This document shows, one piece after another, positions 10,856 through 55,696 of a DNA stretch of 64,000 nt. How positions within the stretch are numbered: the stretch's first letter is position 1; every line of letters begins with the position of its first letter. The DNA is from Odoribacter sp. Z80 (lineage in GTDB: Bacteria; Bacteroidota; Bacteroidia; Bacteroidales; Marinifilaceae), in the NCBI RefSeq assembly GCF_009935865.1, contig NZ_QWEL01000003.1, positions 62,001 through 126,000 of the forward strand. The letters run 5' to 3'. The notes under the pieces were generated by a model. It was not told the DNA's origin. It searched no databases and saw only the letters and a program-made list of their open reading frames with translations. A program made the position numbers and the translations under genes.

Positions 10856-11899
10856 ATGGAAACAGACAACCAAAAACACAATATCCGGGAGTTATCCCTG
10901 CAACATATCAGTGATTTTTTGACGGAAAAAGGAGAAAAAACTTTCAGGGCAAAGCAAATATGGCAATGGATCTGGCAAAGGGGAACAACTGATTTTGAAG
11001 CCATGACCAATTTACCCAAACCAACCCGGGAAATATTGGAAAAATATTTTTTCTTTGATAAAATTACCCCGGCTCAAGTACAGACAGCAACTGACGGTAC
11101 AATAAAAACAGCCTGGCGCCTGCATGACAATGAAATCATTGAAAGCGTACTAATCCCCGGCCACCAGAAATTCACGGTCTGCGTGTCTTCGCAGGTGGGT
11201 TGCAAACTCGGCTGTAAATTCTGTGCCACAGGAAGTCTGGGATTTAAAAGAAATCTCTCCCCCGGAGAAATTTTCGACCAGGTAGTAGCTGCCCAAAAAG
11301 CAGCCGAAGAACAAGAATCAACACTCTCCAATATTGTTTTTATGGGCATGGGAGAACCCTTGTTAAACTATGAAAATGTAATGACGGCTATCGAACAAAT
11401 CACCGCCCGGGATGGTTTGGCCATGTCACCCTACCGGATTACCGTTTCTACGGCAGGAATCCCGGATAAGATACGACGTTTAGCCGATGACGGAGTTCGC
11501 TTTCATTTAGCTGTTTCCCTCCATTCTGCCAAAGAAATAACCCGTAGCAAGCTTATGCCGGTAAACAAAGCCTATTCTCTGCAACAAATTGCTGAAAGCC
11601 TGAAATACTTCGTAGAAAAAACAGGTACACGTCCAACATTAGAATATCTGTTGCTTAAAGACATCAATGATCAACCGGACGATGCCAAAGCGCTGGCTAC
11701 ATATTGCAAACAATTCCCGGTTAAAATTAACCTCATCGAATACAATACAGTTGAAAATACCGGTTTTCAACACAGTCCGGATAAAAACCGGGATGAATTC
11801 ATCCGCTTTCTGGAAAGCTGCAATATGATTGTCAATCTGCGCCATAGCAAAGGCAAAGATATTGATGCCGCATGCGGTCAGCTTGCTGCAAAAAAATAA
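10856..11899 (+). CDS. rlmN: Dual-specificity RNA methyltransferase RlmN
   Basis: A radical-SAM enzyme that makes 2-methyladenosine at A2503 of 23S rRNA and A37 of some tRNAs. The [4Fe-4S] motif CKLGCKFC places cysteines at 116, 120 and 123. The second catalytic cysteine of the RlmN mechanism is present near the C-terminus (about residue 340, in DAACGQL). VFMGMGEPLLNY near 160 is a family signature. Length 347 is normal. The next open frame overlaps its 3' end, but the real start of that downstream gene is 62 bases further on. Confidence 0.96.
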   Translation: METDNQKHNIRELSLQHISDFLTEKGEKTFRAKQIWQWIWQRGTTDFEAMTNLPKPTREILEKYFFFDKITPAQVQTATDGTIKTAWRLHDNEIIESVLIPGHQKFTVCVSSQVGCKLGCKFCATGSLGFKRNLSPGEIFDQVVAAQKAAEEQESTLSNIVFMGMGEPLLNYENVMTAIEQITARDGLAMSPYRITVSTAGIPDKIRRLADDGVRFHLAVSLHSAKEITRSKLMPVNKAYSLQQIAESLKYFVEKTGTRPTLEYLLLKDINDQPDDAKALATYCKQFPVKINLIEYNTVENTGFQHSPDKNRDEFIRFLESCNMIVNLRHSKGKDIDAACGQLAAKK

Positions 11900-11933
11900 A
11901 AAAAAACTTTCGAAATTATTTTACAAAGTTTCT

Positions 11934-11941
11934 TAACTTTG
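11934..11941 (+). promoter_or_regulatory. -7 box for the ROK regulator gene
   Basis: TAACTTTG matches TAnnTTTG and lies 20 bases before the ATG at 11962. TTTC at 11908 is an imperfect -33 candidate. Confidence 0.5.
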
Positions 11942-11961
11942 TAATCATAAAAAAACAATGT

Positions 11962-13191
11962 ATGCAATCAGCAAACAAAACCTCTTTACCGGGTTTAAAA
12001 GAAAAGCGATACCAACAAAAGAAAAGTATTATAGGCGACCTTTATAAAAAAGGGAAACTTTCAAAGCCGGAGATCTGCCGGCTTACCAATATGACAACTC
12101 CAACCATCAGCCGGATCATAGATGAACTTATTGAAGAAGGCTGGGTTGTGGACCAAGGCCAGGGACCTTCTGTCGGAGGAAAACGTCCTCACATTTTTTC
12201 ATTAAATCCGGATGCGGCATACATTATGGGAATTGATTTTGGCCGGGAATTTCTAAAAATTGCCATCTTCAATCTTCATAAAAATCCCATCGGTGAAATC
12301 CAGGTCTTCCCTTCCATCTTAGAAAGCCAGAACAATCAACACATTCTGCAATATCTGAAAGAAAAGATAAACCAAACCCTGGAAATACTGCAAACCGACC
12401 GTCATAAAATTCGGGGTGCCGGACTTTCGCTTCCCGGATTAATCGACAGCGACGGCAATTCCTTTACCTATCTGAACTTTGAAAATACCAACATTCGCCT
12501 CATGCTGGAGGATATGTTGGGTATCCCCGTATTCATTGATAACGATTCCACCATCATGACCCTGGCCGAACACACTTTCGGTGCGGCACAGGATGTTTCA
12601 GAAGCATTGTGCATCAACATCAACGAATGTATAGGGCTCGGGATGATTCTGAACTCACGCCCCTACACAGGTTACAAAGGTATGGCAGGAGAATTGGGAC
12701 ATATTCGTATTCCAGGCTCAGAAAACCTCTGCTACTGCGGTAAGGCCGGTTGCCTGGAAACCATTGCTTCGGGAAGAGCCATCGTAAAAGCCGCACAAAA
12801 GGCAATAGAACAAGGAAAAGCAACTGCCATTCCCTCCAGGACAAAAGGTACTCTCCACCTTACCGATATTATACAGGCCGCTCTCCAGGACGATATTTTC
12901 GCGATTGAATTATTACAAAAAGCAGGCGAAAAAATCGGAGAAGCATTAGCCAGCCTGATTCATCTTTTCAATCCTCAGCGGATAGTTATCGGAGGAGAAA
13001 TCACAGAAGCCCGGGAACTTATCCTGTCCTCCATTCGCCAAGCCATTGATAAATACACCATTGCCCGGCTTAAAAATCAATGTGAAATTCAAATCAGCAC
13101 ACTAACAGACCAATCCTGCATATTGGGCACCCTATGCTTAGTGATGGAACACCTGTATTATGATTCTGAAGAAAATTTTTCTCTATACTAA
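11962..13191 (+). CDS. ROK-family transcriptional regulator, NagC-like
   Basis: A 409-residue protein with an N-terminal winged helix-turn-helix (about 18-75; KPEICRLTNMTTPTISRII is the HTH) followed by the ROK sugar-kinase-like fold with IMGIDFG near 88. The ROK zinc motif is intact: GHIRIPGS then CYCGKAGC (His plus three Cys) around residues 245-265. Proteins of this layout repress sugar genes and release DNA on binding a sugar or sugar phosphate. An intact kinase site cannot be judged. The open frame reaches back to 11872 into rlmN, but the TAACTTTG box and alignment favour ATG 11962. It lies 84 bases ahead of the MFS-NagB genes on the same strand, and its own promoter suggests it regulates them. 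Confidence 0.85.
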   Translation: MQSANKTSLPGLKEKRYQQKKSIIGDLYKKGKLSKPEICRLTNMTTPTISRIIDELIEEGWVVDQGQGPSVGGKRPHIFSLNPDAAYIMGIDFGREFLKIAIFNLHKNPIGEIQVFPSILESQNNQHILQYLKEKINQTLEILQTDRHKIRGAGLSLPGLIDSDGNSFTYLNFENTNIRLMLEDMLGIPVFIDNDSTIMTLAEHTFGAAQDVSEALCININECIGLGMILNSRPYTGYKGMAGELGHIRIPGSENLCYCGKAGCLETIASGRAIVKAAQKAIEQGKATAIPSRTKGTLHLTDIIQAALQDDIFAIELLQKAGEKIGEALASLIHLFNPQRIVIGGEITEARELILSSIRQAIDKYTIARLKNQCEIQISTLTDQSCILGTLCLVMEHLYYDSEENFSLY

Positions 13192-13246
13192 AAATCACTT
13201 ATTCAGAAACTCTATAAAATTATCTTAAAAAAAAATTAATTTTTCA

Positions 13247-13254
13247 TACATTTG
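13247..13254 (+). promoter_or_regulatory. -7 box for the MFS-nagB operon
   Basis: TACATTTG matches TAnnTTTG and ends 21 bases before the MFS start codon, separating the five-gene unit from the ROK gene. This is the natural place for an operator, but no convincing palindrome was recognised. Confidence 0.5.
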
Positions 13255-13275
13255 TAACGAAGCAAGAACAATAGC

Positions 13276-14511
13276 ATGACTATTAAAAAATTTTATCCTT
13301 GGGCAGTCGTAGGTTTATTATGGGGAGTAGCACTCCTCAACTACATGGACCGGCAAATGCTGTCTACCATGAAAGAAGCCATGCAGATAGACATCAGGGA
13401 GTTACAATCAGCGGTTAACTTCGGTCGTCTTATGGCTATATTTTTATGGATTTACGGCTTCATGAGTCCCGTTGCAGGCCTTGTTGCCGATCGGATAAAC
13501 CGCAAATGGCTGATTGTAGGAAGTCTATTTGTCTGGTCGGCAGTAACCTACGGCATGGGATATGCCACCACCTTCAACCAGGTATATTGGTTGCGGGCAT
13601 TGATGGGTATAAGTGAGGCTTTATACATCCCTGCGGGACTTTCCCTGATTGCCGACTGGCATGAAGGCAAATCAAGGTCTCTGGCCATTGGCATCCACAT
13701 GACAGGACTTTACACGGGACAGGCTTTAGGCGGTTTCGGAGCCACTGTGGCAGCCGCTTACTCCTGGCATACGGCCTTTCATTGGTTCGGCATCATTGGT
13801 ATTGCGTATGCCATAATTTTAATATTATTCCTTCACGAAAATAAAGAACACATTGAAATTGAAAAAGTTTCTTTAAAAGGAAGTCCGGAGAAAAATTCCA
13901 TCGGAAAAAGTTTCTCTCTCTTATTCAGTAACATTGCTTTCTGGGTGATTCTCTTTTATTTCGCGGCCCCCAGTCTTCCGGGTTGGGCAACTAAAAACTG
14001 GTTACCCACTTTATTTGCTGAAAATTTAAATTTAGATATGTCATCTGCAGGTCCTTTGTCAACAATTACGATAGCCGTATCTTCCTTTATCGGAGTGATT
14101 TGCGGAGGGATTCTTTCCGACCGGTGGGTTCAAAAGAATATCCGGGGCAGAGTCTACACCGGCGCTATCGGGCTGGGTATGACTGTACCCGCTCTGATGT
14201 TGCTCGGATTCAGCCATCACATTACAGGAGTCGTGGGTGCAGGTCTGTTATTTGGTATAGGCTATGGAATCTTTGATGCAAACAACATGCCTATCCTTTG
14301 CCAGTTTGTTTCAGCAAAAAACAGAGCTGCTGCTTATGGGATTATGAACATGACCGGCGTTTTTGCAGGAGCAGCGGTAACCAGCCTCCTGGGGAAATGG
14401 ACCGACGGCGGAAACTTAGGAACTGGCTTTGCATGGCTAAGCGTAGTGGTGTTGGTTGCCCTGGGGTTACAACTCTATTTCCTGCGGCCCAAGACAGATA
14501 ATATGCAATAA
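13276..14511 (+). CDS. MFS transporter, probable amino-sugar or sugar-acid permease
   Basis: A 411-residue inner-membrane protein with about 12 hydrophobic segments. MDRQMLSTM at the end of TM1 and the loop 2-3 motif GLVADRINRKW (about 70-80) fit the anion:cation symporter-like branch of the major facilitator superfamily, which includes hexuronate and sialic acid carriers. The substrate is not readable from sequence. Context suggests an N-acetylated or acidic amino sugar, because YhcH-like, creatininase-family and NagB-PIG-L genes follow with gaps of 16, 12 and 32 bases. It opens the operon behind a TACATTTG box. Confidence 0.85.
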   Translation: MTIKKFYPWAVVGLLWGVALLNYMDRQMLSTMKEAMQIDIRELQSAVNFGRLMAIFLWIYGFMSPVAGLVADRINRKWLIVGSLFVWSAVTYGMGYATTFNQVYWLRALMGISEALYIPAGLSLIADWHEGKSRSLAIGIHMTGLYTGQALGGFGATVAAAYSWHTAFHWFGIIGIAYAIILILFLHENKEHIEIEKVSLKGSPEKNSIGKSFSLLFSNIAFWVILFYFAAPSLPGWATKNWLPTLFAENLNLDMSSAGPLSTITIAVSSFIGVICGGILSDRWVQKNIRGRVYTGAIGLGMTVPALMLLGFSHHITGVVGAGLLFGIGYGIFDANNMPILCQFVSAKNRAAAYGIMNMTGVFAGAAVTSLLGKWTDGGNLGTGFAWLSVVVLVALGLQLYFLRPKTDNMQ

Positions 14512-14527
14512 CTTTAAAATCAAAGCC

Positions 14528-14974
14528 ATGATCATCTCCAAATTAGAAAATAGTTTCCGGATTGAATCACTTCATCCTTTATTTAAAACCCTGTTTGACT
14601 ACGTCAAATGCCACAATCTCCTGAAAGAAGAAACAGGTAAAATCGTCTTACAGGGAGAAGATTTATTTATCAACAACGTAGCCTTAGAGGGAGTAGAAAA
14701 AAATAAACAACCGTTAGAATTACATCGGGACTACATTGATGTACATATTCTTCTGGAAGGTCGTGAATCTATCGGTTGGAAACCTATTGAAGATTTACAG
14801 GAGGAACTCCAGGCCTATAAAAAAGAAGGAGATTGCGCCTTATATTCCGACAAGCCTACAACTTTCGCAGACCTCCATCCGGGAGAATTTGTGATTGTTT
14901 TTCCGGAAGATCCCCATGCTCCGGCAATCGGTCAGGGAAAAATCCGCAAACTGATAGCTAAAGTGAGAGTTTGA
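14528..14974 (+). CDS. YhcH/YjgK/YiaL (DUF386) family protein, NanQ-like
   Basis: A 148-residue cupin-like protein of the EbgC/YhcH family. The conserved core ELHRDYIDVHILLEG (about 62-76) supplies the His/Glu metal-site residues, and FPEDPHAP near 125 adds another His. E. coli members sit with sialic acid genes, and YhcH (NanQ) is reported to speed anomer interconversion of N-acetylneuraminate. An anomerase or epimerase role on the sugar brought in by the upstream transporter is inference. The open frame extends upstream into the MFS gene, but ATG 14528 gives the standard N-terminus 16 bases after that gene. Confidence 0.85.
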   Translation: MIISKLENSFRIESLHPLFKTLFDYVKCHNLLKEETGKIVLQGEDLFINNVALEGVEKNKQPLELHRDYIDVHILLEGRESIGWKPIEDLQEELQAYKKEGDCALYSDKPTTFADLHPGEFVIVFPEDPHAPAIGQGKIRKLIAKVRV

Positions 14975-14986
14975 AAAATCATACAC

Positions 14987-15754
14987 ATGAATAAAAATAT
15001 AGATTTAACAATATCCTGTTATGGAGAGGTGAAAAAAAACCACTATCACTTGGCCATTCTGCCGTGGGGAGCCACCGAACCGCATAATCAGCATCTTCCT
15101 TACCTGACTGACTGCATTCTTTCTCAGGCTATTTCTTTAGATGCTGCCGGCTTAGCTCTTCACGAGAACCAAGTTCGCTGTATGGTACTACCTCCGGTAT
15201 TCATGGGCTCTCAGAATCCGGGCCAACGGGAACTGGAATTCTGCATTCATTCCAGATATGAGACACAAAAGGCCATCCTTACGGATATCGTCGCCTCCCT
15301 TTCTCATCAAGGACTCCGAAAATTGGTTATCATCAACGGGCATGGCGGCAACAATTTTAAAAATATGATCAGGGACCTTGCCGTAGATTTTCCGGATTTT
15401 TTGATTGCGACCACCGAATGGTTTACCATAGTTCCTCCCCGGAATTTTTTTGAAGAAAAAGACGACCATGCCGGAGAACTGGAAACGTCCGTAATGTTGC
15501 ACTATCATCCGGAATGGGTGAGGCTTGACCTGGCCGGAGAAGGAAAAAGTAAACCTTTCGCCCTTTCTTCGTTAAAAGATAAGATAGCCTGGATTCCGCG
15601 CAACTGGCAAAAAGTGACTCAAGACACCGGAATCGGAGACCCCCGAAAAGCTACCGCATCAAAAGGCAAACAATATGCGGCAGCCGTAACCGGAGAACTT
15701 TGCCGGCTATTCACCGAATTAGCTCTAAACGAGAATATTTATATCGAAAACTAA
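14987..15754 (+). CDS. Creatininase-family metal-dependent amidohydrolase
   Basis: A 255-residue member of the creatininase/FAPy-deformylase/MftE superfamily, which hydrolyses C-N bonds, often in cyclic amides, with a two-metal site. Visible metal-site motifs are LPWGATEPHNQHLP (about 24-37), a TDC aspartate soon after, NGHGGN near 119 and DHAGELETS near 162. Its position between a NanQ-like gene and a NagB-PIG-L fusion makes creatinine itself an unlikely substrate; an amide or lactam of an amino sugar is a better guess, but nothing in the sequence proves it. The start lies 12 bases after the YhcH-like stop. Confidence 0.85.
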   Translation: MNKNIDLTISCYGEVKKNHYHLAILPWGATEPHNQHLPYLTDCILSQAISLDAAGLALHENQVRCMVLPPVFMGSQNPGQRELEFCIHSRYETQKAILTDIVASLSHQGLRKLVIINGHGGNNFKNMIRDLAVDFPDFLIATTEWFTIVPPRNFFEEKDDHAGELETSVMLHYHPEWVRLDLAGEGKSKPFALSSLKDKIAWIPRNWQKVTQDTGIGDPRKATASKGKQYAAAVTGELCRLFTELALNENIYIEN

Positions 15755-15786
15755 ACAAATTATATTAACATAATTAATCCTTTCAT

Positions 15787-17736
15787 ATGATTACAAAAAA
15801 TTATATCGCAAAAGGTGAAGGCGCAGACAGGCTGGAAAAAGTTCCTGTTCAGATCTACGAAAAACCTTCGGAAGCAGTAAAAGCTGTAGCTCAGGAAATG
15901 GCAACTCTTATCCGCGAAAAAACGGCAAAGGGAAAAAAATGTGTATTAGGACTGGCCACCGGCTCCTCTCCTATTAAACTCTATCAGGAATTAGTGAGAA
16001 TGCACCGGGAAGAAGGATTGTCCTTCAAAAATGTCATTACTTTCAATCTTGATGAATATCTGCCGATGCAGAAAGAATCGGAGCATAGTTACCATTACTT
16101 CATGCACCATCATCTGTTCGACCACATTGATATAGACCCCCAAAACATTCATATTCCGGATGGTACTCTAAAAAATGAAGAAATCGAAGATTTCTGTAAA
16201 ACTTACGAACAAGCCATTGAAGCTGCCGGAGGTATTGATATCCAGATATTAGGCATCGGCCGCACCGGCCATATCGGTTTCAATGAACCCGGTTCCTCCA
16301 TGACATCCAAAACCCGCATGGTCTATCTGAACGAACTGACCATGAAAGATGCATCAGGCGACTTCGGAGGCATAGACAAAGTTCCGGCTCGCGCCATCAC
16401 AATGGGAGTAGGCACCATTATGAAATCTCATAAGATTATCCTGATGGCCTGGGGTGAAAATAAAGCTCCGATCGTAAAGAAAACGGTGGAAGGCGGAATT
16501 ACAGACTCTGTGCCTGCTACTTTCCTGCAAACTCATCCCAATGTTCAGTTCGTCATTGACGAAAGTGCCGCAGAAGAATTAACCCGCGCTAATCTGCCCT
16601 GGTTGGTAAGTAAAGTAGAATGGAGTGATAAGCTGATCCGAAAAGCAGTCATTTGGCTTTGTCAGAAAGTCAACAAACCGATTCTGAAAATCGAGAATAA
16701 AGATTACACAGACAACGGAATGAGCGACCTGATTAAAACTTTCGGTTCTGCCAATAAGGTAAATATCCAGGTATTTAATGATTTACAACACACCATTACC
16801 GGATGGCCGGGAGGGAAACCCAATGCAGACGATTCTACCCGTCCCGAAAGAGCTACTCCTTATCCTAAACGGGTATTGATTTTCAGTCCCCACCCGGACG
16901 ATGATGTCATTTCCATGGGAGGTACTTTTGCTCGTCTGGTGGAACAGGGCCATGAAGTTCATGTCGCTTATGAAACTTCCGGAAGTATTGCCGTATTAGA
17001 CGACTACCTCTACCAGCAGATGGACATTGCCTGCTCATTCACCAAATTGTCCGGAGGAGACCTCTCCGCCATGGAAAAGGCGTTCAAACAGATGAAAAAA
17101 GATATCGAATTGAAAAAACTGGATGAACCCGAATCCTCCGATTTATTAAAATACAAAGCGGCATTACGCAGGGCAGAAGCCCGTGGCGCCGACCGTTACT
17201 TAGGCGTACCGGAAGAAAGAGTACATTTCTTGAATCTACCGTTTTACGAAACAGGAACAGTAAAGAAAAATCCGTTAGGCCAGGCAGACGTAGATATTAT
17301 CGTAAAACTTTTACGGGAAGTGAAACCCCACCAAATCTATGCAGCAGGTGACCTGGCAGACCCGCACGGAACCCACGGTGTTTGCCTGGATGCAATCCTC
17401 CGTGCCTATAATGTAGTTGACGGTGATGATTGGTTCAAAGAATGTAACACTTGGTGGTATCGTGGAGCATGGATGGAATGGGAAATTGAAAAAGTAGACA
17501 TGGCTGTGCCCATCAGTCCGGCAGAATTAGCCATCAAACGGAAAGCCATCTACAAACACGGCTCCCAGAACAACGGTCCCGCTTTCCCCGGAGACGATCC
17601 CCGTGAATTCTGGCAGCGTGCAGAAGACCGCAACCGGAACACAGCAGATATATACAACCGTCTGGGAATGGCCGAATATGAAGCTATCGAAGTATTCGCC
17701 AAATATGTTCACAAACACGGAGATACGCTGAAATAA
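15787..17736 (+). CDS. nagB: NagB-type glucosamine-6-phosphate deaminase fused to a PIG-L/LmbE deacetylase domain
   Basis: A 649-residue two-domain enzyme. Residues 1-300 are NagB-like, converting glucosamine-6-P to fructose-6-P and ammonia: GLATGSSP near 55-62 is the phosphate loop, FNLDEY near 86 holds the general-base Asp, and GIGRTGHIGFNEPGS (156-170) keeps the His and Glu of the active site. The Asp expected at position 160 (GxDGH in E. coli) is Thr. After a linker (300-355), residues 356-649 form a PIG-L/LmbE-type zinc de-N-acetylase domain with HPDDD at 369-373 and DPHGTHG near 522. The fusion suggests that deacetylation and deamination occur in one protein, replacing a separate NagA; that coupling is inference. 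Long NagB proteins of this kind are familiar in Bacteroidales. Confidence 0.9.
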   Translation: MITKNYIAKGEGADRLEKVPVQIYEKPSEAVKAVAQEMATLIREKTAKGKKCVLGLATGSSPIKLYQELVRMHREEGLSFKNVITFNLDEYLPMQKESEHSYHYFMHHHLFDHIDIDPQNIHIPDGTLKNEEIEDFCKTYEQAIEAAGGIDIQILGIGRTGHIGFNEPGSSMTSKTRMVYLNELTMKDASGDFGGIDKVPARAITMGVGTIMKSHKIILMAWGENKAPIVKKTVEGGITDSVPATFLQTHPNVQFVIDESAAEELTRANLPWLVSKVEWSDKLIRKAVIWLCQKVNKPILKIENKDYTDNGMSDLIKTFGSANKVNIQVFNDLQHTITGWPGGKPNADDSTRPERATPYPKRVLIFSPHPDDDVISMGGTFARLVEQGHEVHVAYETSGSIAVLDDYLYQQMDIACSFTKLSGGDLSAMEKAFKQMKKDIELKKLDEPESSDLLKYKAALRRAEARGADRYLGVPEERVHFLNLPFYETGTVKKNPLGQADVDIIVKLLREVKPHQIYAAGDLADPHGTHGVCLDAILRAYNVVDGDDWFKECNTWWYRGAWMEWEIEKVDMAVPISPAELAIKRKAIYKHGSQNNGPAFPGDDPREFWQRAEDRNRNTADIYNRLGMAEYEAIEVFAKYVHKHGDTLK

Positions 17737-17750
17737 TAAATCTTAACAGT

Positions 17751-18641
17751 ATGAAAAAGAAAACAACCCTTTTAGTCATGGCAGCTGGTATGGGTTCCCG
17801 TTTCGGTAGTCTGAAACAGATTACTCCACTCGGACCGCACCAGAAGGCCCTGCTTCACTATACCGTATATGATGCCGTCCATGCAGGATTTGACAAAATC
17901 GTTTTTATCATCCGGGAAAGTTTTGCTCAGGAATTTAAAGATTTCGTCGGTAAATATTCAGAGAACTTGGTAGAAACAGACTATTGCTACCAAAGCATGG
18001 AAAACCTGCCCGGAGGGATGCCACCCATTGAGCGGGAAAAACCTTGGGGTACAGCTCATGCCATTTGGTGTGCAAAAGATATTATTCACGAACCCTTCGC
18101 GGCATTGAATGCTGACGATTTTTACGGCAGTGATGCTTTTGTAAAAGCGCATGATTTCCTCGCCAACGAAGCCAGTGACGAAGAATTTGGATTGGTAGGC
18201 TACCAATTGGCAGCTACACTGTCTGAAAACGGAACCGTATCCCGGGGAATATGCGAATCAGATAACAACCAGCATCTGACTTCTGTAACCGAATGCACGA
18301 AAATCGGAATTGAACCGGACGGAACCATCAAAGACCAGGATAGTGGCAAAATATTACATGCAAACGACTTGGTTTCCATGAATTTCTGGGCTTTCACACC
18401 CAAAGTTTTCCAGGAAATTGAAAAACAGTTCATCGAATTCTATCCGGCAAACAAGGATAATCTGAAATCAGAATTCTACATCCCCAAGGTAGTAGACAAA
18501 ATGATTAAGGATAACACAGCACAGGTAAAAGTGCTGAAAACCGATGCAAAATGGTTTGGAGTAACTTACAAAGAAGATACTCCTGGTGTAAATGCCGCTT
18601 TAACGGCATTTGACAAAGAAGGCAAATACCTGGATTTGTAA
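17751..18641 (+). CDS. Sugar-phosphate nucleotidyltransferase-like protein
   Basis: A 296-residue GT-A-fold nucleotidyltransferase. LVMAAGMGSRFG (8-19) is the nucleotide-binding loop and LKQITPLGP follows; ALNADDFYG near 118 is the metal-binding acidic motif. KPWGTAHAIWCA near 98 is the usual nucleobase-contact region. The acceptor sugar phosphate is unknown. It is 14 bases after the nagB fusion and is the last gene of the unit, followed by a long hairpin, so it may activate the sugar handled by the operon, or salvage it into a nucleotide sugar instead of catabolism. Confidence 0.82.
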   Translation: MKKKTTLLVMAAGMGSRFGSLKQITPLGPHQKALLHYTVYDAVHAGFDKIVFIIRESFAQEFKDFVGKYSENLVETDYCYQSMENLPGGMPPIEREKPWGTAHAIWCAKDIIHEPFAALNADDFYGSDAFVKAHDFLANEASDEEFGLVGYQLAATLSENGTVSRGICESDNNQHLTSVTECTKIGIEPDGTIKDQDSGKILHANDLVSMNFWAFTPKVFQEIEKQFIEFYPANKDNLKSEFYIPKVVDKMIKDNTAQVKVLKTDAKWFGVTYKEDTPGVNAALTAFDKEGKYLDL

Positions 18642-18658
18642 TTCGCAAACTTCTGAAA

Positions 18659-18735
18659 TTGTCTGAAACCTTTAGTGAGGCTGTCTTACCGTCAATCGGC
18701 TGACAACTTCACTAAAGAGTTTTCAGACAATCTTT
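18659..18735 (+). terminator. Long hairpin terminator of the MFS-nagB operon
   Basis: TTGTCTGAAA (18659-18668) pairs perfectly with TTTCAGACAA (18721-18730), then CTTTAGTGA (18670-18678) with TCACTAAAG (18709-18717), leaving a 30-base loop. TCTTTTC follows. The total arm length of 19 bp exceeds a typical terminator. Confidence 0.75.
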
Positions 18736-18778
18736 TCATATAAACGATTTACTTAGATAAACTACCGCATCCCCTTCC

Positions 18779-20239
18779 ATGAGTAAATTATTTTTTCTGT
18801 TTCCCGCCATTTTTTTTCTTCAGTTAAATGTAACCCAGGCTCAATACCACATTGACATTCATGTCAGACAAATGGCAGGACAAAAGGTTACACTGGGATA
18901 TTATACCTCAGACAGCAAACTGTTGGTTCAGGATAGTGTCATACTCAACTCCCAAGGAAAAGGAACTCTCCGGAATGAGCAACAGAAACTCGCACGAGGA
19001 CTTTACCTGCTGGTTTTTTCCCGCACCAAATATTTCGACCTGCTCATCGGTGACCAACAAAATTTTTCTGTTTGGGTAGATACACTGGACATCCAGGGAA
19101 GTATGCGCATTGAAGGCTCGCCAGAGAATCAGGAATTTTTGAAATTTCAACGTTTTATTCAATCCAAGAACAGAGAAAAACAGCAACTCAAAGATGCTTA
19201 CGACAAACATCCTCAAAAAAACGAAGAAACCACCAGAAAGAAATACCTGGAACAATTAAAAGCCATAGACCGAACGGTCCAGGATTATCTGGTACCCCTA
19301 AGACGAGGTGACAGGGGAAGTGCCCTGATGGCTCTCGTCAACTTTTCCGTTCAAACCGAAACCCCGGATTTTTCAAAAGAAATAGCAGAAAATACCCCGG
19401 ACCGGGAAGTAGAAATATTACGGAAAACACTTTATTACGAAAAAGACCATTACTGGGAAAGAATCAATCTCCAGGATAGCATATACATCCGGATTCCCGG
19501 ATTTAAAAACAAGCTGGAAAACTATTTCAGCAAAATGCTGCCCCAACATCCGGATACCATCTGTCAGGAAGCAATCCGACTCATAGAAAAAGCACGGGGA
19601 AATACAACCATGTTCCAATATATGACTGCCACTTGCTTTAATTATGCTTTAAAAAGCGAAATTATGGGAATGGATGAAGCATGGGTAAAACTGGGAAAAC
19701 GCTATTACCTTTCACGGCAGGTGAAATTCGGAGGAACCGAGGAAAATCTCAGGCAACTGGAGCGGGAAATAGCCCTGACTCAATATAACCTTATCGGTCA
19801 AACGGCTGTAGAACTAAAACTCCCGACATTGGAAGGCAATTGGGTAAGCCTTCATGAAACGGAGGCTCCCTTTATCCTGCTACTTTTCTGGGAGGAAAAT
19901 TGCGGCCATTGCAAAAAACAAGTACCCCAGATAAAGCAAAAATTACTGGACCGATTTAAACCCTATGGTTTCAAAATCTTTGCCGTCCACGGAGCCAACG
20001 AAAAAGAAAAATGGGAAAGATTCATCATTGACCATGAATTGTTCGATTTCATCAACTGCTGGGATCCCCACCGACAATCCAACTTTCAAATGTACTATCA
20101 TGTAGACGCCACCCCCGTTATGTACATGCTCGATAAAAACAAAAAAATCATCGGCAAAAAACTCAGCATTGAGCAATACGCCGATATGCTGGTCCACGAA
20201 TACAAAAAAATAGGGATAGATATTCCTACAAAGGAATAA
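18779..20239 (+). CDS. TlpA-like thioredoxin-fold protein with CGHC motif
   Basis: A 486-residue exported protein with a signal peptide (1-22, ending TQAQ), an N-terminal DUF4369-like beta domain (about 23-115), a helical DUF5106-like middle (about 115-335) and a C-terminal TlpA/AhpC-type thioredoxin domain. FWEENCGHCKKQVPQ near residue 370 has an intact CxxC, and DATPVMYMLD near 443 supplies the cis-proline. It is expected to carry out thiol-disulfide exchange in the periplasm; the client is unknown. It starts 48 bases after the operon terminator and lies upstream of a related protein that has lost its cysteines. Confidence 0.82.
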   Translation: MSKLFFLFPAIFFLQLNVTQAQYHIDIHVRQMAGQKVTLGYYTSDSKLLVQDSVILNSQGKGTLRNEQQKLARGLYLLVFSRTKYFDLLIGDQQNFSVWVDTLDIQGSMRIEGSPENQEFLKFQRFIQSKNREKQQLKDAYDKHPQKNEETTRKKYLEQLKAIDRTVQDYLVPLRRGDRGSALMALVNFSVQTETPDFSKEIAENTPDREVEILRKTLYYEKDHYWERINLQDSIYIRIPGFKNKLENYFSKMLPQHPDTICQEAIRLIEKARGNTTMFQYMTATCFNYALKSEIMGMDEAWVKLGKRYYLSRQVKFGGTEENLRQLEREIALTQYNLIGQTAVELKLPTLEGNWVSLHETEAPFILLLFWEENCGHCKKQVPQIKQKLLDRFKPYGFKIFAVHGANEKEKWERFIIDHELFDFINCWDPHRQSNFQMYYHVDATPVMYMLDKNKKIIGKKLSIEQYADMLVHEYKKIGIDIPTKE

Positions 20240-20305
20240 TAAATTACTGCATTTACCGAAAATATTGTATTTTCGTAAAAATAAATCATCATCGAATCTA
20301 TTGTC

Positions 20306-21469
20306 ATGAGCACAAAAAATATCTTATATTTTCTATCTATCATCACACTGGCTATTTCCTGTGGAGATAAAAAAAACGTCAGCATATCCGGAACTATCCA
20401 AGGGGCAGATAAAGAAAAAATTTATCTGGAACAACTGAACGTAGATAAAACTTACCCGGTCGACTCTACCTGTACGGATAAAAAAGGCCGGTTCTCTTTC
20501 AAATTGACAACCCAATTACCTACCTTTTATAACCTCCGGACAAACAGCGGAGAATCCGTCACCCTTTTAGCTATGCCGGACGAACAAATAAAAATAAACG
20601 GCCAGTTGAAAGGTCTTGCCCGGAATTATTGGGTCGACGGCTCCGACCATTCCCTCTGGATTAAACTTCTGAACTTCCAGCATCAACGCACTTTATCCCA
20701 CATGGATTCTTTACAAAAAATATACACCTCTCTTCCTCAGGATGTCTCCGGGAACAATGAAAGGCAAAGACTGACAGCAGAATGGGATTCTGTTATTTCG
20801 AAACAGATCAGTTTCTCCAAGGACTTCATTTTAAAGCATGCAATTTCTCCGGCTTCCTATTATGCCTTATATCAAAAATTTGACAAAGACAATTTTATTC
20901 TCACTCCTCAGGAAAATTTACATTCCTATAAAATCGTGGCTTCATCTTTGCAGGCCCTCTATCCGGAATCACCATACACCAAAGCCATCCTCACCCATCT
21001 AAAACAAATTAATCAGACACTACAAGGAGAAAAACTCCGTCAATTGATTGCCAGCAGTGAAGGTTCTTTACCGGAAATCCGATATGCCAACATCCAGAAT
21101 GACACTCTTTCTCTCAGCTCTTTCAAAGGAAAATACATCATTCTGGATTTCACTATTCTCCAGGCAGAAGGAGCGCCGGCTGCCATCGAAAACCTCAGGA
21201 AAATTTATAATAAATTCAAACACAAAGGGGTTGAAATCTACCAGGTGTGTCTCGACCCCAACAAAGCAGATTGGGAAAAAGCCGTGAAATATTTCCGCAT
21301 AAACTGGCCTTGTGTCTGGGACCCGGACGGATTGAACAGTCGAGCCGCACAATCGTGGAATATTCAAAATATCCCGGCAAACTATATCATCAATCCCCGA
21401 TATGAGATTGTAGGCAAAAATTTATCCGGTTCCCGTCTGGAAGACAGGTTAAAAGATTTAATCCGATAA
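20306..21469 (+). CDS. DUF4369/TlpA-like lipoprotein without redox cysteines
   Basis: A 387-residue lipoprotein: the signal sequence ends LAISCGD, so Cys19 is the lipid site. A DUF4369 domain covers about 27-115 and a TlpA-like domain the C-terminal third. Where redox members read WxxWCxPC, this protein has FTILQAEGAPA near 280, so neither catalytic cysteine exists; the cis-proline is kept (NIPANYIIN near 352). It is therefore probably a binding or structural paralogue, not an oxidoreductase. It follows the CGHC protein by 66 bases and precedes lpxH by 8, suggesting co-transcription with lpxH. Confidence 0.8.
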   Translation: MSTKNILYFLSIITLAISCGDKKNVSISGTIQGADKEKIYLEQLNVDKTYPVDSTCTDKKGRFSFKLTTQLPTFYNLRTNSGESVTLLAMPDEQIKINGQLKGLARNYWVDGSDHSLWIKLLNFQHQRTLSHMDSLQKIYTSLPQDVSGNNERQRLTAEWDSVISKQISFSKDFILKHAISPASYYALYQKFDKDNFILTPQENLHSYKIVASSLQALYPESPYTKAILTHLKQINQTLQGEKLRQLIASSEGSLPEIRYANIQNDTLSLSSFKGKYIILDFTILQAEGAPAAIENLRKIYNKFKHKGVEIYQVCLDPNKADWEKAVKYFRINWPCVWDPDGLNSRAAQSWNIQNIPANYIINPRYEIVGKNLSGSRLEDRLKDLIR

Positions 21470-28415: not shown

Positions 28416-28447
28416 CTCTACAAATATAAAAATTCAACTTCTTAATG

Positions 28448-28519
28448 TAGTCAGTACGGGAATCGAACCCGTGTTGCAAGAATGAAAATCTTGTGTCCTA
28501 ACCCCTAGACGAACTGACC
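28448..28519 (-). tRNA. tRNA-Glu (UUC), copy 2
   Basis: 72 bases with a full cloverleaf: acceptor GGTCAGT/ACTGACT (closing G-U pair), anticodon arm CAAGA/TCTTG around loop TTTTCAT giving anticodon UUC, T-loop GTTCGAATC, discriminator A. CCA is not encoded. It is identical to the copy 20 bases upstream. Confidence 0.97.
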
Positions 28520-28539
28520 ATGGGTCTTTTTTTGTAATG

Positions 28540-28611
28540 TAGTCAGTACGGGAATCGAACCCGTGTTGCAAGAATGAAAATCTTGTGTCCTAACCCCTAG
28601 ACGAACTGACC
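28540..28611 (-). tRNA. tRNA-Glu (UUC), copy 1
   Basis: Identical in all 72 bases to the neighbouring copy (anticodon UUC, CCA not encoded). It is the first gene after the promoter at 28632-28662, so the two tRNAs, and perhaps rpsT, form one transcript. Confidence 0.97.
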
Positions 28612-28631
28612 AAGGTTTTGCTTAGCGGATG

Positions 28632-55578: not shown

Positions 55579-55696
55579 AAGTCCATAATTTATAAGTTTA
55601 TAAAGCCTATAAAGTTTATAAAGCCTGTAAAGTTATAAAGCCACATGACCTTACGAACCTTATAAACCTTATAAACTTTATGAAACTTCATAAGCC
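55576..55696. repeat. TTATAAAG short-unit array, inverted halves (rplO-secY gap)
   Basis: The left half repeats units such as GTTTATAAAGCC several times; the right half repeats CCTTATAAA and CTTTATGAA, i.e. the reverse-complement sense. The halves could pair into an extended A/T-rich hairpin. It differs from the GATTTACGATT family. Confidence 0.6.

Follow-up and report, generated by a model that had tools for sequence, protein, structure and literature searches.

The 64,000-nt stretch of Odoribacter sp. Z80 analyzed here (hereafter the window) carries six co-directional genes on the forward strand (11962–18641), most likely serving the uptake and degradation of sialic acid, a major nutrient of gut Bacteroidetes. 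Profile searches assigned them, in order, to a ROK regulator, a major facilitator superfamily (MFS) permease, a YhcH/DUF386 protein, a creatininase-family protein, a fusion of NagB (glucosamine-6-phosphate (GlcN6P) deaminase) with a PIG-L de-N-acetylase domain, and a sugar nucleotidyltransferase. The strong family matches confirmed the gene content described in an earlier note on this DNA. The short gaps of 12–32 bases reported there hold from the permease gene onward (16, 12, 32, and 14 bases), but the gap between the ROK and permease genes is 84 bases and contains a separate -7-like box, TACATTTG, at 13247.

The permease (13276–14511, +) matched the MFS_1 profile at 9e-52. Its homologues, with 58–84% identity, were found in 10 loci, and all 10 also contained NanA, AGE, NanM, or sialidase genes; these loci had been retrieved via the creatininase-family gene and so do not sample the permeases freely, although no counter-example was seen among them. 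The permease thus appears to fall in the NanT clade, and we predict a NanT-like role in sialic acid transport from its profile match and homologue neighbourhoods. The adjacent YhcH/DUF386 protein (14528–14974, +; profile 5e-44) is a putative cytoplasmic anomerase of N-acetylneuraminic acid (Neu5Ac). The designation "NanQ-like" stands at the family level: the protein scored 97.5 against a cut-off of 45.5 for the YhcH/YjgK/YiaL subfamily. A NanQ-like action is suggested by genomic context, with YhcH homologues lying within or beside nan genes in G324, G313, L027, and L127.

The fourth gene (14987–15754, +) encodes a creatininase-fold, metal-dependent hydrolase (PF02633, 2e-54), a candidate amino-sugar N-deacylase. 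The superfamily fold and the Glu/His/Asp...His metal site are present. The structure model (predicted local distance difference test (pLDDT) 91.7) superimposed closely on 3lub, a putative creatinine amidohydrolase of Bacteroides fragilis (Z 37.2, 62% identity, root-mean-square deviation (rmsd) 1.0 over 252 residues), placing both proteins in the same subfamily. 3lub is represented only by a solved structure released in 2010, and we found no function for it in the published papers searched. Similarity to creatininase itself (1j2t / 3a6j) was lower (Z 25, 21% identity): in the alignment the positions of Glu34, His36, Asp45, and His120 are kept, whereas that of the metal ligand Glu122 is occupied by a glycine. 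This residue, Gly121, is invariant in 36 relatives. With 81 bits against an equivalog cut-off of 235, the protein is, by these tests, a member of the creatininase superfamily and not creatininase proper (EC 3.5.2.10). FAPy deformylase, MftE, and IolN were not among the structure matches listed, which says nothing on their kinship.

To place this gene in context, we scanned 84,980 species genomes; the neighbourhood counts given here refer to the best 80 loci among the matches listed, with neighbours clustered, named by profile, mapped back, and counted within the flank examined. All but one of the 80 were titled Bacteroidales or Bacteroidota (L075 was titled Hungatella). Sialic acid genes (NanA-type lyase, AGE epimerase, NanM mutarotase, or sialidase) occurred in 15 of the 80 flanks, and these loci fall in several different branches of the tree. 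In one relative (G321), the creatininase-family gene sits inside a locus running sialidase-fucosidase-YhcH-SASA-NanA-NanM/SSF-AGE-LacZ-GH20; in two of the 80 loci it directly follows yhcH, and SASA/GDSL esterases are frequent neighbours. Across 60 relatives, the gene was present in 6 of the 8 genomes where NanA and AGE are linked and in 3 of the remaining 52 (Fisher p = 4e-5; p = 2e-4 with the Odoribacter sp. Z80 genome excluded). These neighbourhoods support the earlier proposal that associates the creatininase-family protein with amino-sugar genes. The literature searched yielded no relevant paper on a creatininase-family gene within a nan locus.

The remainder of a sialic acid pathway lies elsewhere in the genome (2.56 Mb, 99.8% complete). 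An operon on contig C40 (~72.5–76 kb, outside the window) comprises a NanA-like lyase, a NanM-type mutarotase, an AGE epimerase (714 bits, above the equivalog cut-off of 600), and a GDSL/SASA esterase, with the NanA/NanL-type lyase and AGE (NanE-II) epimerase genes adjacent. The genome further encodes a ROK kinase, whose adjoining gene is GH92-like by eye, and two sialidase-family proteins above the PF13859 cut-off, one of them beside a GH20-like gene. In same-family relatives (G324 and G313), the nan operon begins with yhcH and its NanM is fused to a sodium:solute symporter (SSF), whereas the Odoribacter sp. Z80 operon lacks yhcH and its NanM has no SSF domain. The permease and YhcH of the window appear to fill exactly the two places empty in the C40 operon. 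Such NanM-symporter fusions were located at L124:8531-11287, L126:8074-10788, and L127:7053-9785. The own-genome sialidase gene at L148:8303-17557 is accompanied by GH20-like, GDSL esterase-like, GH2-like, and second GH20-like genes; the sialidase alone was profiled, and the region is likely a host-glycan locus.

Relatives have their permease and creatininase-family genes in nan loci, and this genome encodes the remaining pathway steps elsewhere; the sugar handled by the unit is therefore most likely sialic acid. This narrows the earlier suggestion, supported here, of an N-acylated amino sugar that is taken up and degraded. We consider it probable that the unit provides uptake and the lower half of a Bacteroidetes-type sialic acid pathway kept at two places in the genome. 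Sialidases and hexosaminidases outside the cell would release Neu5Ac, which the MFS permease would import and YhcH would convert by ring opening. The NanA lyase and AGE epimerase of the C40 operon would then yield N-acetylmannosamine (ManNAc) and, from it, N-acetylglucosamine (GlcNAc), to be phosphorylated by the ROK kinase. Removal of the N-acetyl group could fall to the PIG-L domain fused to NagB, to the creatininase-family protein, or to both, and the NagB half would deliver fructose-6-phosphate. The ROK regulator presumably represses the unit until an amino-sugar intermediate binds.

The published Bacteroidetes route, NanL/NanE-II/RokA/NagA/NagB, ends in NagA and NagB and needs NagA (PMC10017367). 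Canonical NagA was not found in the 99.8% complete genome: the best TIGR00221 match, a TRZ/ATZ hydrolase, reached 26.5 bits against a cut-off of 225.65. The NagB-PIG-L protein (15787–17736, +) is a full-length match to PRK02122 (1020 bits, cut-off 384) with intact motifs in its PIG-L half (HPDD at residue 369 and HGTH at 527), and is the only GlcN6P-deaminase-type protein of the genome, the other NagB-superfamily member being a 6-phosphogluconolactonase. With no canonical NagA found and the fusion the sole protein of its type, deacetylation is therefore plausibly the task of PIG-L, of the creatininase-family protein, or of the two together. The PIG-L half also shows a weak local match, ~50 residues around HPDD, to the archaeal diacetylchitobiose deacetylase (Dac), a PIG-L family enzyme that, by contrast, is not fused to NagB. 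NagA matches at the threshold used were present in 12 and absent from 32 of 44 chosen Bacteroidales genomes, nearly all with either the creatininase-family gene or linked nan genes; absence of NagA is thus common among carriers. Because 21 of the 24 genomes with NagA contain the fusion too, it was rejected as a strict NagA replacement in general.

In Bacteroidia, PRK02122 fusions usually do not adjoin the creatininase-family gene. The two are adjacent in the window and near each other in three Prevotella-type loci among the best 80, where the creatininase-family gene follows nagB and nagB-pigL, with NanA and AGE absent from the flank examined. The earlier note would take a lack of joint conservation of the creatininase-family and NagB genes as a refutation, and this is half borne out: physical adjacency is rare, although at the genome level an association exists: among 295 genomes of the class, 42 of which encode a NagB-PIG-L protein above 650 bits, the two genes co-occur (7/11 versus 35/284, p = 1.6e-4).

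Several observations weigh against the sialic acid interpretation. About 48 of the 80 best loci have no recognised sugar partner in the flank, and 11 place the creatininase-family gene in a different context, with a SIS-domain protein. The YhcH score of 93.9 bits falls short of the curated NanQ equivalog cut-off of 160. The Fisher tests ignore shared ancestry and their counts were read off tables. The presence of the fusion in most NagA genomes means that it does not simply stand in for NagA. Nor did a direct connection between the two operons emerge: the palindrome that precedes the ROK gene does not recur at the nan operon.

For the creatininase-family protein itself, the most likely role, though short of an even chance, would be to hydrolyse an amino sugar of the sialic acid pathway at its N-acyl bond. 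Known relatives such as creatininase and ArfB open cyclic or formyl amides, which favors a second explanation: that its substrate is an unusual sialic acid or a derivative (N-glycolyl, lactone, or lactam), and that the N-acetyl group carried by the main intermediate is not its target. The frequent neighbouring SASA/GDSL esterases handle modified sialic acids, and PIG-L or NagA could cover the N-acetyl step. Yet the gene also occurs in SIS-context loci without sialic acid genes and in many genomes without a recognised partner, and we regard this explanation as rather unlikely. It is unlikely, too, that the Bacteroidetes creatininase-family clade constitutes a new class of amino-sugar N-deacylase, deacetylating in sialic acid and GlcNAc catabolism where canonical NagA is lacking.

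General scavenging offers another account, in which the MFS permease takes up GlcNAc or ManNAc in free form instead of sialic acid, and the creatininase-family protein and NagB-PIG-L act on the imported sugar; sialic acid would then be just one source. The NagC-like ROK protein and NagB-PIG-L both relate to GlcN6P metabolism, the Prevotella-type loci pair the gene with nagB and nagB-pigL and show no NanA or AGE in the flank examined, and a second clade of the gene accompanies a ROK kinase, an MFS transporter, a SIS-domain protein, and GH20 or GH9. Against this, the permease clade occurred only in sialic acid loci among the loci examined, and the role of YhcH as a Neu5Ac anomerase has been demonstrated (PMC8141875). 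We judge general scavenging to be distinctly unlikely.

The SIS context itself was seen in 11 of the 80 loci (L043, L057, L067, L068, L082, L084, L086, L089, L095, L096, and L102) and falls mainly in one branch of the tree. It consists of a ROK kinase, an MFS transporter, a 253-aa SIS_2 protein (PRK02947), and the creatininase-family gene, which is followed in several cases by GH20 or GH9 genes, and it looks like a compact amino-sugar pathway. In a separate tree clade (L091, L094, L100, L103, and L104), the creatininase-family gene is flanked by LuxR-type and methylmalonyl-CoA mutase genes.

The large share of best homologue loci among unrelated genes (~48/80) would also fit a passenger, that is, a general metabolic enzyme, for example in metabolite repair, that came to lie close to sugar genes on repeated occasions. 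The nan linkage in 15 of the 80 loci, distributed over several branches, and the co-occurrence at the genome level speak against this, and we consider it quite improbable. Salvage of muramic acid lactam from spore walls, put forward in the earlier note, is exceedingly improbable: creatininase-family enzymes can open lactams, but neither the unit nor its annotated neighbours, which are sialic acid or hexosamine genes, showed any enzyme family for muramic acid, and no sign of such a substrate came from the unit or its relatives.

The probable split sialic acid pathway invites comparison with the nanLET systems of Bacteroides fragilis and Tannerella (NanL lyase, NanE-II/AGE, NanT, RokA, NagA, and NagB). 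The lyase and epimerase types, the MFS permease, the ROK kinase, the sialidases, and the esterase are alike, and many nan operons likewise include a YhcH-type anomerase. Odoribacter sp. Z80 differs in that the pathway is split over two places, with the permease and YhcH genes sitting together with NagB-PIG-L and the creatininase-family gene, and in that its genome gives no canonical NagA match. Overall, we see an ordinary pathway in an unusual split layout, plus one conserved enzyme whose reaction is open to assay. The missing deacetylase and the role of the conserved hydrolase represented by 3lub thereby merge into one testable question with two named candidates.

The regulator heading the unit (11962–13191, +) matched the ROK profile PF00480 at 2.5e-58 and carries an N-terminal winged helix-turn-helix. 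Its open reading frame opens at 11872, within the upstream rlmN-like gene, and the likely start is 11962. The protein shares 34% identity with the ROK protein heading the nan operon of relative G324 and ~30% with that beside nanA in B. salyersiae. Although ROK domain and winged helix-turn-helix are present, its NagC equivalog score was 241 against a cut-off of 650, and a palindrome was seen only at 11921. This perfect inverted repeat, TTACAAAGTT-TCTT-AACTTTGTAA (11921–11944), overlaps a Bacteroidetes -7-like box, TAACTTTG, at 11934, and is a candidate ROK operator. The assignment is suggestive only, because first-order Markov resampling of this region produced a 10-bp arm in 109 of 5000 cases. 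An operator common to the window and the nan operon of this genome was rejected, as no copy of the palindrome with ≤5 mismatches was found near the latter.

At its far end, the unit includes the sugar nucleotidyltransferase gene (17751–18641, +; NTP_transferase 4e-11), whose closest solved relative is 3pnn, an unnamed protein. It was rejected as a member of the conserved unit, with no homologues in any locus examined. The long intergenic stem-loop that closes the unit (18654–18738, +), also reported earlier, is real by its folding energy (−38 kcal/mol, z = −7.3 against 200 shuffles), but a consensus scan called no intrinsic terminator of the classical U-tract type there. As a dispersed repeat it was likewise rejected, a second copy not being found in the sequences examined. 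Downstream of the hairpin follow two consecutive genes for thioredoxin-like proteins (18779–21469), the first with AhpC/TSA and DUF5106 domains and the second judged by eye only. Elsewhere in the window, two identical tRNA-Glu(TTC) genes lie in tandem within a 92-base direct repeat (28443–28612), and 18-base AT-rich tandem repeats (55594–55686) separate the secY-like and rplO-like open reading frames of a ribosomal protein operon.

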